Below the pieces are notes generated by a model. That model saw nothing but the letters and a program-made list of their open reading frames with translations, ran no database searches and had not been told where the DNA came from. The position numbers and the translations under genes are program-made. From Candidatus Thorarchaeota archaeon (GTDB lineage: Archaea; Asgardarchaeota; Thorarchaeia; Thorarchaeales; Thorarchaeaceae), in the NCBI GenBank assembly GCA_019894665.1, contig JAGXOC010000005.1, forward strand, positions 6,724 through 60,989: 54,266 bases of DNA. Direction: 5' to 3'. Below are positions 13,386 through 18,237 of the stretch, one piece after another. How positions within the stretch are numbered: the stretch's first letter is position 1; the number at the start of each line of letters is the position of its first letter.

Positions 13386-15062
13386 ATGGATAAGAATGAA
13401 GATGTATCGAAGGACTGCCGTTACAAGAAGAAGAATAGACGGTTATTTGTGCTAGGTCTGGTTGCTATCGCTAGTGCGTTTTGGATTTTACTTCGGACTG
13501 GAAGGAAACCAACACGCGTTTTTTATCCCTGTCAACAGGTTTCCCTTGTTAATATCCAAGTCTTTAAGGTAGCACTACTAGCGTCAATTCCGAGTATCGC
13601 ATCATTACGATCATCGCTAAGTCCTCTAAAACCGATAGCTGTGCTTGCAGTTTTGTTTGTTGGATCTGCTGCAATTATTAATGACTCTACAATGACCATG
13701 CTAGGATTTTCCTTGGCTGCAGACGATGATTACACTAGAATTCCACTTGACATTCAACCGTTAACATCTCTTAGCCCTGAGGACAGTTCAGATCTTTTTG
13801 TTGTACAGAATGCCAGTAGTCTTGAAGGTGATATGAACCCTGCAGTTGATACTCTAATCTCAATGATGGCCTCCGAAGGATTACATTTCTATAAGACCGT
13901 CACTGAACCCACAGGCTTGATTGGAAGTGATAATGTAATCATTCTGAAAGTGAACGGCCAGTGGTCTTACAGAGGAGGAACCAATACGGATCTGATCAAG
14001 AGTGTTATTGAAGCGATTCTTGATCATCCTGATGGCTTCACGGGAGAAATTGTTATAGCTGACAATGGACAGGGCTTAGGTAATCTAGATTGGTTATTTG
14101 CTAATGCCTTCAATCATAGCCAGGCGGCAACTGATGTAGCTCAATCATTTCCCGTTGAACAAGTATCGACCTTTCTTTGGGATGATTTGCGGCCCTATAC
14201 TGTTGATGATTATGACGAGGTCGATTTTGCTGACGGATATGTCCTGAGTTCTGACTGGAACAACGAAACACAGATGTTTGTGTCATATCCTAAGTTTCAG
14301 ACCTCAAATGGTGTATATCTCAGTTTCAAAAATGGTGTCTGGGAAAATGGAACTGGTTTTGATTCAGACAGATTGAAGGTCATCAATATGCCTGTTCTAA
14401 AGACCCATATGCGTTATGGAGTTACGGCATCTGTCAAGCATTATATGGGTGTTCCAAAGGGTCATATTGTATCCTCGGTTGATCCCGGCATCCCACACGA
14501 ACACTTCTCAATAGCGCTAGGTGGGATGGGCACTCTGATGGTTGAAACCAGAGCTCCAATCTTGAACATTTTAGACATGATTTGGGTGAATCCCCATCCA
14601 CTTGAGAGTTCAGAGAGACGTGGTCCATGGTCTACGTACACATCTGCTAAGTTCACAGACATCATCGGTGTCAGTCAAGATCCGGTCGCTTTGGACTATT
14701 GGTCTACAAAGAATGTTCTGATCCCCACTGCTGCATATTTGGGGTATACAGAATTCTCGTCACTGGATCCTGACTATGAACCTCTCAGTGACCCTTTCAT
14801 TGGGTCCCAAGGAATGGATGAATCGTTTGCCAATTACCTGCATCGGTCAGAAGATGTCCTCAGGGATGCAGGCTTTCAAGTGACGACAAATACATCAGAG
14901 ATGAATGTGTTTGTGTCAGAGATGTCAGGTAATCCTCCTGGTACTTCAACAAACGAACCTGATCCTGGATTCATTCTTGACCCAGTCATGCTAGCCATTG
15001 CAATCCCACTTTCTGCCGGAATAATTGTCCTTGCTGCAGTTATGGCCAGACGAAGAAATTGA
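13386..15062 (+). CDS. Membrane-anchored DUF362-domain protein
   Basis: The 558-residue protein has two N-terminal hydrophobic segments (about residues 19-36 and 72-92), a large soluble domain and a C-terminal membrane helix (LAIAIPLSAGIIVLAAVMA) followed by RRRN. The soluble part carries DUF362 signatures: NVIILKVNGQWSYRGGTNTD, GEIVIADNGQG and VINMPVLKTHMRYG with SVKHYMGVPKG. DUF362 proteins are often ferredoxin-linked, but no Fe-S cysteine cluster is present here and the function is unknown. The start is the ATG at 13386-13388 with GGAG about 9 nt upstream. The frame is open further upstream to 13245, but that stretch is atypical and encodes no recognised extension. Confidence 0.75.
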   Translation: MDKNEDVSKDCRYKKKNRRLFVLGLVAIASAFWILLRTGRKPTRVFYPCQQVSLVNIQVFKVALLASIPSIASLRSSLSPLKPIAVLAVLFVGSAAIINDSTMTMLGFSLAADDDYTRIPLDIQPLTSLSPEDSSDLFVVQNASSLEGDMNPAVDTLISMMASEGLHFYKTVTEPTGLIGSDNVIILKVNGQWSYRGGTNTDLIKSVIEAILDHPDGFTGEIVIADNGQGLGNLDWLFANAFNHSQAATDVAQSFPVEQVSTFLWDDLRPYTVDDYDEVDFADGYVLSSDWNNETQMFVSYPKFQTSNGVYLSFKNGVWENGTGFDSDRLKVINMPVLKTHMRYGVTASVKHYMGVPKGHIVSSVDPGIPHEHFSIALGGMGTLMVETRAPILNILDMIWVNPHPLESSERRGPWSTYTSAKFTDIIGVSQDPVALDYWSTKNVLIPTAAYLGYTEFSSLDPDYEPLSDPFIGSQGMDESFANYLHRSEDVLRDAGFQVTTNTSEMNVFVSEMSGNPPGTSTNEPDPGFILDPVMLAIAIPLSAGIIVLAAVMARRRN

Positions 15063-15064
15063 TC

Positions 15065-15688
15065 CTATTGTTTGCAGTATCTGAACGTACATCGCTTGTC
15101 ACCAGACGCAATGGTCTCATGACGAGTAAACCCTATCCAGCTCTCAATGACGTCTGCTAGGATGTTTTCATAATCACAGAGTATAGGTCCCAACTCAGGT
15201 TTACCTGCCTCTCGAAGGATATCAAAATAGAGGCATTTCTGAATGTCGAAACCGAAGCATCCCTCCTCCTGGTCGACCTCTACAACTTGAAAATGTTCGT
15301 CGTTGTAGTTCGCTTCGTTGCCCTTTCGTGCCCATTCGACAAACGCTTCCCATGGATTGACAGACTGCTCGAGCGCTGCTACTTCAGCCTTGAAGAAATC
15401 CTGAAGCATTGCCCTGTAAATGGAAATTACGGTTTCTTTAAGCTCATTGAAGGAGGCTCTGACTTCACACATCACATCATCCAATGCCATCACGAAGAGT
15501 GAGTTGACACCGTGCCTTTTTGCGATTGGATCTCTCAGCATATTCTCATAATTGTTGTAATGGATCTTGAACTGTCGGGTGAATAGCTTGTGCAATGGTC
15601 CTCCCTTATCGCCAAACTGTTTATTCAATTCTTGGAGGGTCAACTGGGAAAAGTAATCAATTAATTGCTGAATTGGATCTTCGGCCAT
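15065..15688 (-). CDS. L-2-amino-thiazoline-4-carboxylate (ATC) hydrolase-family protein
   Basis: The soluble protein of about 207 residues matches the ATC-hydrolase-like family by its C-terminal half: GCFGFDIQKCLYFDILREAG, ILCDYENILAD and the terminal GDKRCTFRY, with conserved cysteines. In Pseudomonas a member of this family opens a thiazoline ring during cysteine synthesis. Most relatives are uncharacterised, and a ring-opening hydrolase role here is only inferred. I place the start at the ATG at 15686-15688 (MAEDPIQQLIDYF...); the frame is open to 15778 with an unconvincing basic leader. It is convergent with the DUF362 gene (2-nt gap). A second, shorter family member lies at 52098. Confidence 0.72.
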   Translation of the reverse strand: MAEDPIQQLIDYFSQLTLQELNKQFGDKGGPLHKLFTRQFKIHYNNYENMLRDPIAKRHGVNSLFVMALDDVMCEVRASFNELKETVISIYRAMLQDFFKAEVAALEQSVNPWEAFVEWARKGNEANYNDEHFQVVEVDQEEGCFGFDIQKCLYFDILREAGKPELGPILCDYENILADVIESWIGFTRHETIASGDKRCTFRYCKQ

Positions 15689-15835
15689 TGTGAAATCACG
15701 TTTTCTGAACTTGTGATGTTGCACAGGCATTTTGAAACTATTGGTATGCTTGTCTATGCGGTCTATTGCGGATTTCATTCACTTGAGTAGTAACAATATG
15801 TGACTCCCTTTTGTGACCCTAAGAAGTGGCTCCGC

Positions 15836-15843
15836 TATATATA
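15836..15843 (+). promoter_or_regulatory. TATA box for the small-peptide cluster
   Basis: TATATATA follows the GC-containing stretch TGGCTCCGC (possible BRE). The distance of 33 nt to the ATG at 15876 predicts a transcript start just before the first small ORF, which would give a nearly leaderless mRNA. It is the clearest TATA element that I see in the window. Confidence 0.6.
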
Positions 15844-15863
15844 CCAAAACCGAGTAGTATTCC

Positions 15864-15886
15864 TTGTGAAATATCATGGCTCTAAC
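15864..15886 (+). repeat. Leader/start repeat, copy 1 (copy 2 at 16122-16144)
   Basis: TTGTGAAA, four further bases, then TGGCTCTAAC are shared with 16122-16144. The two 23-bp copies differ at only two positions. Each covers a GTGA element six bases before the ATG and the first codons of a small basic peptide (Met-Ala-Leu-Thr). The match shows that peptides 1 and 2 arose by duplication together with their translation signals. Confidence 0.75.
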
Positions 15887-15983
15887 TATTAACTCTGGTA
15901 ACTCATCTGTGGTGAAGAACAAGAGAGGTCGCGGTGTATCAACCAAGGCCTTGACCTACGCTTACATGACCGTTGTAAGGTGA
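15876..15983 (+). CDS. Small basic peptide 1 (35 aa), family of three
   Basis: A 35-codon frame begins MALTINSGNSS, continues with the basic stretch KNKRGRG and ends STKALTYAYMTVVR. It shares the start MALT, the core T-K/R-A-L/I-T-x-A-Y and a basic C-terminus with peptides 2 and 3 downstream. A TATA box sits 33 nt upstream, and the leader including the GTGA element is duplicated in front of peptide 2. The last codons and stop (AGG TGA) form the ribosome binding site of the next small ORF. No homologous family is known to me. It has no membrane helix or signal peptide. It could be a small regulatory, DNA/RNA-binding or secreted peptide; the function is unknown. Confidence 0.55.
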   Translation: MALTINSGNSSVVKNKRGRGVSTKALTYAYMTVVR

Positions 15984-15988
15984 TAGAA

Positions 15989-16117
15989 ATGGTGTACGCT
16001 GAACGACTTATCTATTGGATTTCTGCTGACCTTGGGGTGACTAGCGACTGGTCACACGGTGGTCACAGTACTGGTCAGTTAGTCTCAGAAACAGCATATC
16101 ATGTGACCAACCTATAG
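15989..16117 (+). CDS. Small ORF, 42 aa, in peptide cluster
   Basis: This frame begins MVYAERLIYWISADLGVTSD, contains HGGHSTGQ and ends ETAYHVTNL. Its ATG follows AGGTGAT, which is formed by the last codon and stop of peptide 1, with a 4-nt spacer matching the GGTGA-type sites of other genes here. It is not related in sequence to the three basic peptides. The same DNA carries three GGTCA elements, so the stretch may be regulatory rather than coding. Confidence 0.33.
   Translation: MVYAERLIYWISADLGVTSDWSHGGHSTGQLVSETAYHVTNL
16050..16108. promoter_or_regulatory. Array of GGTCA(C) elements upstream of peptide 2
   Basis: GGTCAC occurs at 16050-16055 and 16061-16066, GGTCA at 16073-16077, and the inverted form GTGACC at 16103-16108. 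A further GTGACC lies upstream of the TATA box at 15813-15818. The three direct copies are 11 and 12 bp apart, about one helical turn, as expected for cooperative protein binding on one face of the helix. The array overlaps the 42-aa ORF. Confidence 0.4.
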
Positions 16118-16121
16118 GAAG

Positions 16122-16144
16122 TTGTGAAAGATTATGGCTCTAAC
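16122..16144 (+). repeat. Leader/start repeat, copy 2
   Basis: This is the second copy of the 23-bp element at 15864-15886, with 21 identical positions. It includes the GTGA element and the ATG GCT CTA AC start of peptide 2, with the same six-base spacing. Confidence 0.75.
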
Positions 16145-16229
16145 AAAGAACGATAACCGATCCGTGCAGACGAACAAACGCGTGCTTCAAACCCGCGCTA
16201 TAACTCATGCTTACACCTACAGGAGGTAA
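16134..16229 (+). CDS. Small basic peptide 2 (31 aa)
   Basis: A 31-codon frame begins MALTKNDNRSVQTNKR and ends LQTRAITHAYTYRR. It aligns with peptide 1 over the start (MALT), the Asn/Lys/Arg-rich middle and the core TRAITHAY. The last two codons and stop, AGG AGG TAA, contain a full Shine-Dalgarno (AGGAGGT, 16221-16227) that serves the next frame. Strongly basic, with no hydrophobic segment. The function is unknown. Confidence 0.55.
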   Translation: MALTKNDNRSVQTNKRVLQTRAITHAYTYRR

Positions 16230-16234
16230 GATGC

Positions 16235-16303
16235 TTGACAAAGAAATACAATTCTCGAAACATCTCAACACGTGCAATTACTGACGTCTACTTTAGAAGG
16301 TAG
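16235..16303 (+). CDS. Small basic peptide 3 (22 aa, TTG start)
   Basis: The frame starts with TTG, 7 nt behind the AGGAGGT at 16221-16227. The overlapping ATG at 16231 is in another frame and only 3 nt from the SD. The peptide reads LTKKYNSRNISTRAITDVYF followed by RR: the same LTK start, TRAIT core, Tyr and terminal Arg-Arg as peptide 2. Its last codons and stop (AGA AGG TAG) again form an SD-like site for the frame at 16309. The frame was only found by its similarity to peptides 1 and 2. Confidence 0.5.
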   Translation: MTKKYNSRNISTRAITDVYFRR

Positions 16304-16308
16304 AATCC

Positions 16309-16482
16309 ATGAGTGTCCCGTCTAAACCTTATAATTTTGGTTTGAAATATAAACAAAATTATGATTTTAAGTACGTGATACAAAATAATGCTTTGAGAAT
16401 AACGCTTATAACCAAACCATATAGTAATTATGGTGTGTCCGACAAACTATATTCTGTTTGGAGTCGAACCATATCAGAGTAG
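16309..16482 (+). CDS. Small ORF, 57 aa, Tyr-rich, in peptide cluster
   Basis: This frame begins MSVPSKPYNFGLKYKQNYDF and ends DKLYSVWSRTISE. It is rich in Tyr, Asn and Lys, and its DNA is clearly more AT-rich than the neighbours. AAGGT at 16297-16301, within the last codons of peptide 3, lies 7 nt upstream of its ATG. The DNA also contains an AT-rich inverted repeat (16331-16362). No family is recognised; other frames are open here as well, so coding status is uncertain. Confidence 0.35.
   Translation: MSVPSKPYNFGLKYKQNYDFKYVIQNNALRITLITKPYSNYGVSDKLYSVWSRTISE
16331..16362. repeat. AT-rich inverted repeat
   Basis: ATAATTTTGGTTT and AAACAAAATTAT pair over 12 bp with one bulged G around a 7-nt loop (GAAATAT). 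It lies inside the 57-aa ORF and may be an operator or an mRNA hairpin. Confidence 0.45.
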
Positions 16483-16614
16483 AGCAATGCGACTTTCACA
16501 TTAGATTCACACCGGACAAATCTCCTATCTCCGAGTCTCCTAAGGTGGAGATTCAGCAGCGGCCCTCGTTTGTGTGATCCGGGGGCCGGTGCACTCCGTA
16601 GGAAGTTGATTGCC
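16483..16614 (+). ncRNA. Structured stretch with two adjacent hairpins before the MFS transporter
   Basis: Hairpin 1 (16533-16554) pairs GAGTCTCC with GGAGATTC, 8 bp with one G-U, loop TAAGGT. Hairpin 2 (16556-16592) pairs GCAGCGGCCCTC with GGGGGCCGGTGC over 12 positions with one mismatch and one wobble, loop of 13 nt. They are one base apart. Three copies of TCTCC (16521-16540) could compete for the single GGAGA, so alternative folds are possible. GC content here is much higher than in the flanking AT-rich DNA. It could be a structured mRNA leader, a small RNA or an attenuator; no known riboswitch consensus is recognised. Confidence 0.4.
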
Positions 16615-16722
16615 ATGAAACGTGAAACAGAATTCCCAAACGAGTGTGCTAAAAATACATGCTCTGAGAGGGTAACAGTTTTGATTTCTTACAAAGATAT
16701 CAACCAAAAAAATGAGTGTTGA
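16615..16722 (+). CDS. Small ORF, 35 aa, three cysteines, before MFS gene
   Basis: This frame begins MKRETEFPNECAKNTCSER and ends NQKNEC, ending 6 nt before the MFS start. AGGAAG lies about 9 nt upstream of its ATG. The Cys-x4-Cys pair plus a C-terminal Cys is suggestive of a metal-binding or disulfide peptide, but the frame is short and unsupported by homology that I know. Confidence 0.3.
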   Translation: MKRETEFPNECAKNTCSERVTVLISYKDINQKNEC

Positions 16723-16728
16723 AATTTC

Positions 16729-18237
16729 ATGAGCAGGACGAAATCATTCCTTGGCTTGCCAGACGCCACTGATAAAGTCATAAGACTGGCAAAAATAATG
16801 GGAATCTTGGGACCATTAGCCAATGTGATATTTACGCTCAGCTCTACATATTTCGTGATCTTTGTAGCTGAGGCTCTTGGTGGAGGTCCTGGAATGTATC
16901 TCCAGGGTATGGGGCTTGTAGGAACTCTCGTGGTTGTGCAAATGCTTGTCCAGATACTACTCGATTATCCAACCGGTGCAATAGGTGACTGGATCGGCCA
17001 ACGATACATAATCGCGGGTGCACAAGTTTCGTACGGTATAGCATTCCTTCTGATTTCTTTTATCACAGTTGATACACCTTTCCCCTATCTCATAGGTGTC
17101 TATGCACTGATGGGCTTTGCTCAATCACAGTCAAGTGGAGCATGGGGTGCATGGTTCGATAACAACTACCGCATAGCAATGCCTCAAGACACAGACCGGA
17201 AGCAGTACGGAGTCTTCTGGGGTCGTATGGGTATGATCATGGCGATAGTGTCAACCGCCTCGCTGATACCTGGAAGCATCCTAGCTGTTGTATTCTCAAG
17301 GGCTTGGGTGTTTCAAGTACAAGGCGTCTTAGCTTTTGTGTTTGCCATGGCTGTCTTTAGATTAGTACGGGACTTCCCGGAGGTCGAAGATGCGAGGGCA
17401 CAGAACGGCGGACGACCTGATATGGGTGAGTACCTCTCTATCCTGAAAGGTGGTGTCAGTCATCTCTTCAGACATGCTTTCATTCGTTACATCGCAATAG
17501 GAACCATGCTAGCAGTGAGTAGCATCATGGTGTGGGGTAACCTCATTCTGTTCCCGATGTACTACCTCTACCTGATAACGGATGTTGGAGTTGCTAGTTT
17601 CAGAACACTACTCTTCATTCCAGGTATCTTCTCACAGGAGCGTTCAGGTATTTGGTCACGTAGGTTTGAGCCAAAGAAGTGGATTCCACGGTTTCGTCTA
17701 ATGCAGACATGTGGGTTCATTTTCTTCTGGGTGTTTGCAACAATCATGACGTTCTTCCCACCTGCAGCATCTAGTACAAACATCTTGACTCTCTATTGGC
17801 CATTGACAAGTATTGAACTCTTGAGCTTACCAGTGGAGAATATCATACCGATTGTCCTCATATTCGGAACCTTTGTATCGACCAGTTTCTTTGGAGGGTT
17901 TGCTGAGATCTTGACTCAACGAGTACTGTTAGATGTCATTCCGAATAGGATCAGGAACTCGATGTACTCCCTGTTCCCAACTCTCGCAACTCTGTTTGCG
18001 ATTCCACAGATAGCTCTGTTTGGTTGGCTAATAACAATCATTGGATTCCCCTTGACTCTTGCGTGTTGCGGTGTGATATCATTCATGGGTGTCATGTTGA
18101 TTCTACACGGTTTCAGACACGAGCCTCCAGAGATTGATGGTGAAGCTTGGGCGAATGGTGGTGCGGTTGTACCTCCAGAAGAATCTACAGCTGATGTAAA
18201 TGAAGAGATTGTTGATGAGATTCCGCTCAAGGACTAA
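16729..18237 (+). CDS. MFS-type transporter
   Basis: The 502-residue membrane protein has about 12 hydrophobic segments in two sets, with the motif A-like loop LLDYPTGAIGDWIGQRYIIAG between segments 2 and 3 and a charged central loop (VRDFPEVEDARAQNGGRPD). The C-terminus is soluble and acidic (about 40 residues). The substrate is unknown. It is the first full-size gene behind the small-peptide cluster and in the same direction, so it could export a product of the cluster or respond to it; this is inference from position only. The initiating ATG at 16729 has no clear ribosome binding site. A terminator hairpin follows at 18246. Confidence 0.88.
   Translation: MSRTKSFLGLPDATDKVIRLAKIMGILGPLANVIFTLSSTYFVIFVAEALGGGPGMYLQGMGLVGTLVVVQMLVQILLDYPTGAIGDWIGQRYIIAGAQVSYGIAFLLISFITVDTPFPYLIGVYALMGFAQSQSSGAWGAWFDNNYRIAMPQDTDRKQYGVFWGRMGMIMAIVSTASLIPGSILAVVFSRAWVFQVQGVLAFVFAMAVFRLVRDFPEVEDARAQNGGRPDMGEYLSILKGGVSHLFRHAFIRYIAIGTMLAVSSIMVWGNLILFPMYYLYLITDVGVASFRTLLFIPGIFSQERSGIWSRRFEPKKWIPRFRLMQTCGFIFFWVFATIMTFFPPAASSTNILTLYWPLTSIELLSLPVENIIPIVLIFGTFVSTSFFGGFAEILTQRVLLDVIPNRIRNSMYSLFPTLATLFAIPQIALFGWLITIIGFPLTLACCGVISFMGVMLILHGFRHEPPEIDGEAWANGGAVVPPEESTADVNEEIVDEIPLKD

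Follow-up and report, generated by a model that had tools for sequence, protein, structure and literature searches.

The locus analysed here lies in a 54,266-nucleotide stretch (the window) of contig JAGXOC010000005.1 from a Candidatus Thorarchaeota archaeon, and consists of a composite promoter followed by three very short genes and, further downstream, by an MFS transporter gene (Table 1). The three short frames are members of one orphan microprotein family, here called alpha, whose proteins are 22–38 aa long and basic and carry the core S-T-x-A-[ILV]-x-x-A-[YF] close to the C-terminus. An initial annotation, made from the window alone, had described three related frames with the lengths and cores listed in Table 1, and we find them in place as described, with pairwise peptide scores of 53, 38 and 41, where shuffled peptides average 18–20; the observed scores of the three pairs were reached by 0, 0 and 6 shuffles per 5000. 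The shared start of alpha1 and alpha2 was likewise recovered by a repeat search as a 30-bp repeat of 83% identity, with 21 of 23 bp identical over TTGTGAAAxATxATGGCTCTAAC. Orthologues of alpha2 are present in three further loci (L040, L044 and L104), and the alpha3 frame is retained in L040 and L104; the end of alpha2, AGG AGG TAA, could act as a Shine-Dalgarno sequence for alpha3. An ATC-hydrolase-like gene (PF14196; 15065–15778) is divergent from the peptide operon, its predicted start and the operator palindrome being about 10 bases apart; this gene places the group among Candidatus Thorarchaeota such as AB_25.

Table 1. Features of the alpha locus in the window (coordinates are those of the window)
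Feature	Position	Strand	Remarks
Operator palindrome AGTAACAATATGTGACT	15789..15805	.	One mismatch to consensus AGTCACAnnATGTGACT
Second promoter element TGTGACCC-N6-GTGGCTCCG	15812..15834	+	Exact match in the window
TATA box CTATATATAC	15835..15844	+	Conserved in the 70-locus promoter alignment
Leader TTGTGAAATATC immediately before ATG	15864..15875	+	TTGTGAA nearly invariant across 70 loci
alpha1 gene, MALTINSGNSSVVKNKRGRGVSTKALTYAYMTVVR	15876..15983	+	35 codons, ATG start at 15876, core TKALTYAY
Conserved nucleic-acid element, TGGTCAC direct repeats, closing TGTGACCA	16060..16120	+	Overlaps open frame 15989–16117
alpha2 gene, MALTKNDNRSVQTNKRVLQTRAITHAYTYRR	16134..16229	+	31 codons, ATG start at 16134, core TRAITHAY
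alpha3 gene, MTKKYNSRNISTRAITDVYFRR	16235..16303	+	22 codons, TTG start at 16235, core TRAITDVY
MFS transporter gene	16729..18237	+	PF07690; ~425 bp downstream of the alpha cluster

Whole-genome searching revealed alpha paralogues in the same genome, with 80% and 62% identity, and further matches in relatives, all free of internal stops. A profile (A1) built from 25 members was then searched against 228 Asgard genomes. Homologues in related genomes, on which the initial annotation had made its proposal depend, were found throughout the window's own family: all 47 of its genomes match, 42 at E<=2.2e-5 and five weakly (E 0.013–0.057). None of the 181 Asgard genomes outside that family has a match at E<0.01; two gave weak ones (E 0.025 and 0.057). 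Alpha is usually present in multiple copies per genome, in several syntenic loci and mostly as two or three tandem genes: among 80 loci read with a strict core pattern, 52 have two alpha frames, 13 have three and 15 have one. The genomes are largely fragmented MAGs, and copy numbers are lower bounds. Within the family the ends of the peptides are conserved and the middles variable, the mean charge of alpha1 is +4.6, and cysteine occurs in only 3 of 71 alpha1 peptides. Codon bias in alpha1 (AAC 0.89, AAG 0.87) exceeds that of six comparison genes.

The loci were grouped by neighbours conserved across species, with SMC, PolX, transketolase and EF-1alpha named by eye from sequence. Locus A, to which the window belongs, adjoins the ATC-hydrolase-like and MFS genes; locus B adjoins a gene for a 1123-aa SMC-like protein and an MFS gene that starts a few bases past the last alpha stop; locus C lies near desulfoferrodoxin and transketolase genes, locus D after a PolX-like gene and locus E after EF-1alpha. 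In L037 and the locus B orthologues the peptide operon and MFS gene are found on the opposite strand, between genes of 219 and 172 aa beside the SMC-like gene; that these two small genes are ScpA and ScpB is a guess by eye.

Pooled pairwise counts over syntenic loci gave dN/dS values for alpha1 of 0.43, 0.35, 0.37, 0.41 and 0.40 in loci A, B, C, D and E, with third-position change in excess, so that the DNA is not conserved without its reading frame, the outcome that the initial annotation had named as contrary to its proposal. Two neighbouring open frames are not claimed as proteins because their dN/dS values are 0.86 (15989–16117, MVYAERLIY...VTNL, considered as a fourth peptide) and 0.88 (16309–16482). 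The first of these also has no third-position excess and is broken in several loci, and is probably a nucleic-acid element rather than protein-coding. Folding of the element at 16060–16120 revealed no covariation. The TGGTCAC repeats between alpha1 and alpha2, which occur without alpha1 in L205, are possibly a second operator.

In many loci alpha is followed by a second frame, gamma, which ends in EVLALEAT or EVLMLEAT and is acidic, most gammas being negatively charged. Gamma has a dN/dS of 0.50 over the whole frame and 0.25, with third-position excess, over the last 12 codons. Profile searching detected it in 37 of the 228 Asgard genomes, all within the window's family (10 of the 47 family genomes gave no detection at E<=0.01), and placed a copy in the window's own genome at C332. 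It is close to certain that these genes represent a real, lineage-specific microprotein system: the sequences show alpha and gamma to be under selection as proteins, to occur in a single archaeal family and to share one promoter module with larger genes.

The first alpha gene is usually preceded by a composite promoter in which the palindrome AGTCACAnnATGTGACT is followed by TGTGACCC-N6-GTGGCTYCG and then by a TATA box. Alignment of 70 loci resolved this as AGTCACAAnATGTGACT, TGTGACCC-N6-GTGGCTTCG, the TATA box and TTGTGAAATATC before the ATG, and the strong TATA promoter proposed by the initial annotation thus stands as part of a module conserved over these loci. Transcription probably starts near the 5′ end of the leader TTGTGAAATATC, as judged by TATA spacing. 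Alpha loci that do not have the composite promoter include L038, L039 and L090. A palindrome search of 16 genomes of the genus returned a handful of sites per genome, and reversed-pattern controls mostly returned zero. Sites read in the genus that do not precede alpha include those at a bactofilin-like gene (PF04519), a membrane-protein gene and an MFS gene; the last is the paralogue (L195) of the window MFS gene, 56% identical to it and directly behind an operator-TATA module. A pattern search placed the second element ahead of alpha genes and also, with mismatches, ahead of the bactofilin-like gene. The operator-linked membrane protein has an acidic N-terminus and, by eye, many hydrophobic segments, with no convincing Pfam family, and a TPR gene lies on the far side of its operator. 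In further genera of the family the operator was again found ahead of the bactofilin-like and membrane-protein genes, and some of the sites read there have no recognised gene. A nitroreductase gene behind the operator is a single case. The operator palindrome, the genome-wide loci, the acidic partner elsewhere and the larger genes behind the same module all go beyond the initial annotation.

That annotation knew of no described family, and neither database nor literature searches provided one. The three window peptides had no Pfam match at E<=1, 25 alpha members had no NCBIfam match, PHROGs returned only isolated single-member matches (best E 0.035), and a PDB profile search gave no alpha match at E<=10. 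Rfam had no match over 15000–17500, phage records contained no match to one alpha1 peptide, and the exact promoter pattern did not occur in viral contigs. A global small-protein catalogue exists (PMC11364881); our literature search found no paper describing such alpha peptides. The nearest likeness in kind is to the one-domain zinc-finger microproteins of Haloferax (PMC6562870, PMC10716476), which are also archaeal, shorter than 70 aa and have cellular roles; however, these use C(P)XCG zinc motifs, whereas alpha is almost without cysteine and shows no homology to them. Halofilins, or archaeal bactofilins, have a reported part in controlling cell shape according to the title of Curtis et al. 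2024 as cited in PMC7617734, and resemble the present case in that a bactofilin-domain gene lies here behind an alpha-type promoter module, but operator-linked microproteins were not found in the literature searched.

Structure modelling of alpha gave a mean pLDDT of 65, with one C-terminal helix at residues 23–32 and weak structure over the N-terminal two thirds. An amphipathic nature of the helix was considered and dropped, hydrophobic-moment tests being not significant, and with so weak a model no interaction surface is therefore predicted. Reading the KRGRG of the window alpha1 as an AT-hook was also rejected, as the stretch is not conserved.

Expression, regulator, binding partner and process are what we infer from these data. 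The locus would represent one member of a dispersed family of regulated operons for microproteins, specific to Thorarchaeota. In it a putative transcription factor probably binds the GTCACA-N3-TGTGAC palindrome and the TGTGACCC/GTGGC repeats and would thereby govern a strong TATA promoter. From the predicted transcript, two or three closely spaced alpha genes would be translated into small basic proteins, and the AGG AGG codons (Arg-Arg) that close one gene would often double as ribosome-binding site for its successor; in other loci acidic gamma or an MFS transporter comes after alpha. The functional product is probably the peptides, which may most readily be seen as charged adaptors working inside the cell in a response of the envelope or cytoskeleton, because the same module precedes the bactofilin-like gene and that of the polytopic membrane protein. 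We tie the role of alpha to this bactofilin/membrane regulon only tentatively; genes behind the same promoter need not share a function, and the MFS genes could equally point to efflux or export. A bolder proposal, which we regard as rather doubtful, is that basic and acidic microproteins, bactofilin, membrane protein and transporter together build or remodel part of the envelope or cytoskeleton under one regulator, as a regulon peculiar to Asgard archaea and without known counterpart. What emerges is a conserved system, present across a whole Asgard archaeal family, of genes too short for the usual limits of annotation, and one promoter module ties these microproteins to bactofilin and membrane proteins. 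A regulon of Asgard cell biology is thereby opened to direct tests by metatranscriptomics and peptide mass spectrometry.

Among the alternatives to an adaptor role, alpha proteins could bind nucleic acids or the ribosome inside the cell and be induced under stress. Their strong basic charge, the weak structure of their N-terminal two thirds and a codon bias that fits high expression are all consistent with this, but a known binding motif is absent, the KRGRG stretch of the window alpha1 is not conserved, and the acidic gamma partner is left unexplained; we consider it a doubtful possibility. The nucleic-acid-binding regulators suggested by the initial annotation are not supported by any DNA-binding fold.

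Export of alpha, and of gamma, as signals or antimicrobials, with the MFS proteins exporting them or conferring immunity, is unlikely. The closeness of the MFS gene to the last alpha gene in locus B, the MFS gene downstream in the window, with its paralogue behind the same promoter module, and the small, basic peptides with their variable middles would suit such a role. Nevertheless, inspection revealed no leader, double-glycine motif or hydrophobic segment, MFS genes are absent from most loci, and the peptide ends are conserved rather than varied. RiPP and bacteriocin precursors also occur as several short related frames in tandem, a feature they have in common with alpha, but alpha has no leader motif and its conserved part is the C-terminal end. 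No RiPP modification enzyme was recognised among the annotated neighbours, which were clustered by blastp and of which about ten representatives were scanned against Pfam, several without a match. The secreted or toxin-like peptides and the precursor peptides envisaged by the initial annotation are not established, and evidence for secretion or toxicity was not found.

Bacterial leader peptides before efflux genes consist of a short frame, a Shine-Dalgarno sequence overlapping its end and a transporter gene next. Alpha peptides acting likewise, as leader or arrest peptides with control over how the following gene is translated, would account for the C-terminal conservation, the Shine-Dalgarno sequence at each frame end and, in locus B, the MFS gene that follows directly. 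In contrast to such leaders, most alpha operons have no downstream transporter and alpha is under protein-level constraint; locus E operons have by eye no next gene, gamma is often last, and the C-termini are conserved anyway. A simple leader role is argued against because several loci end in alpha or gamma with no close downstream gene on inspection, and we judge it improbable. That the alpha frames are chance readings of a conserved DNA or RNA element, as is probably true of the two rejected neighbouring frames, is scarcely credible in view of the dN/dS values of alpha1 and of the gamma C-terminus, the third-position excess and the stop-free matches.

Two further arrangements were observed. 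Near-identical blocks of ~410 bp (88–98%) occur in L108, L110 and L111 of one genome (G022) and in L092, L094, L095 and L098 of another (G032), where they extend from the operator to the end of gamma, marked by a hairpin and a T-rich stretch. Their flanks are unrelated, which would fit intragenomic copying of a cassette, although no terminal repeats or target-site duplications were established. At L152, an alpha-type promoter precedes a short MALT frame, after which comes a very long open frame with an acetyltransferase-like start.
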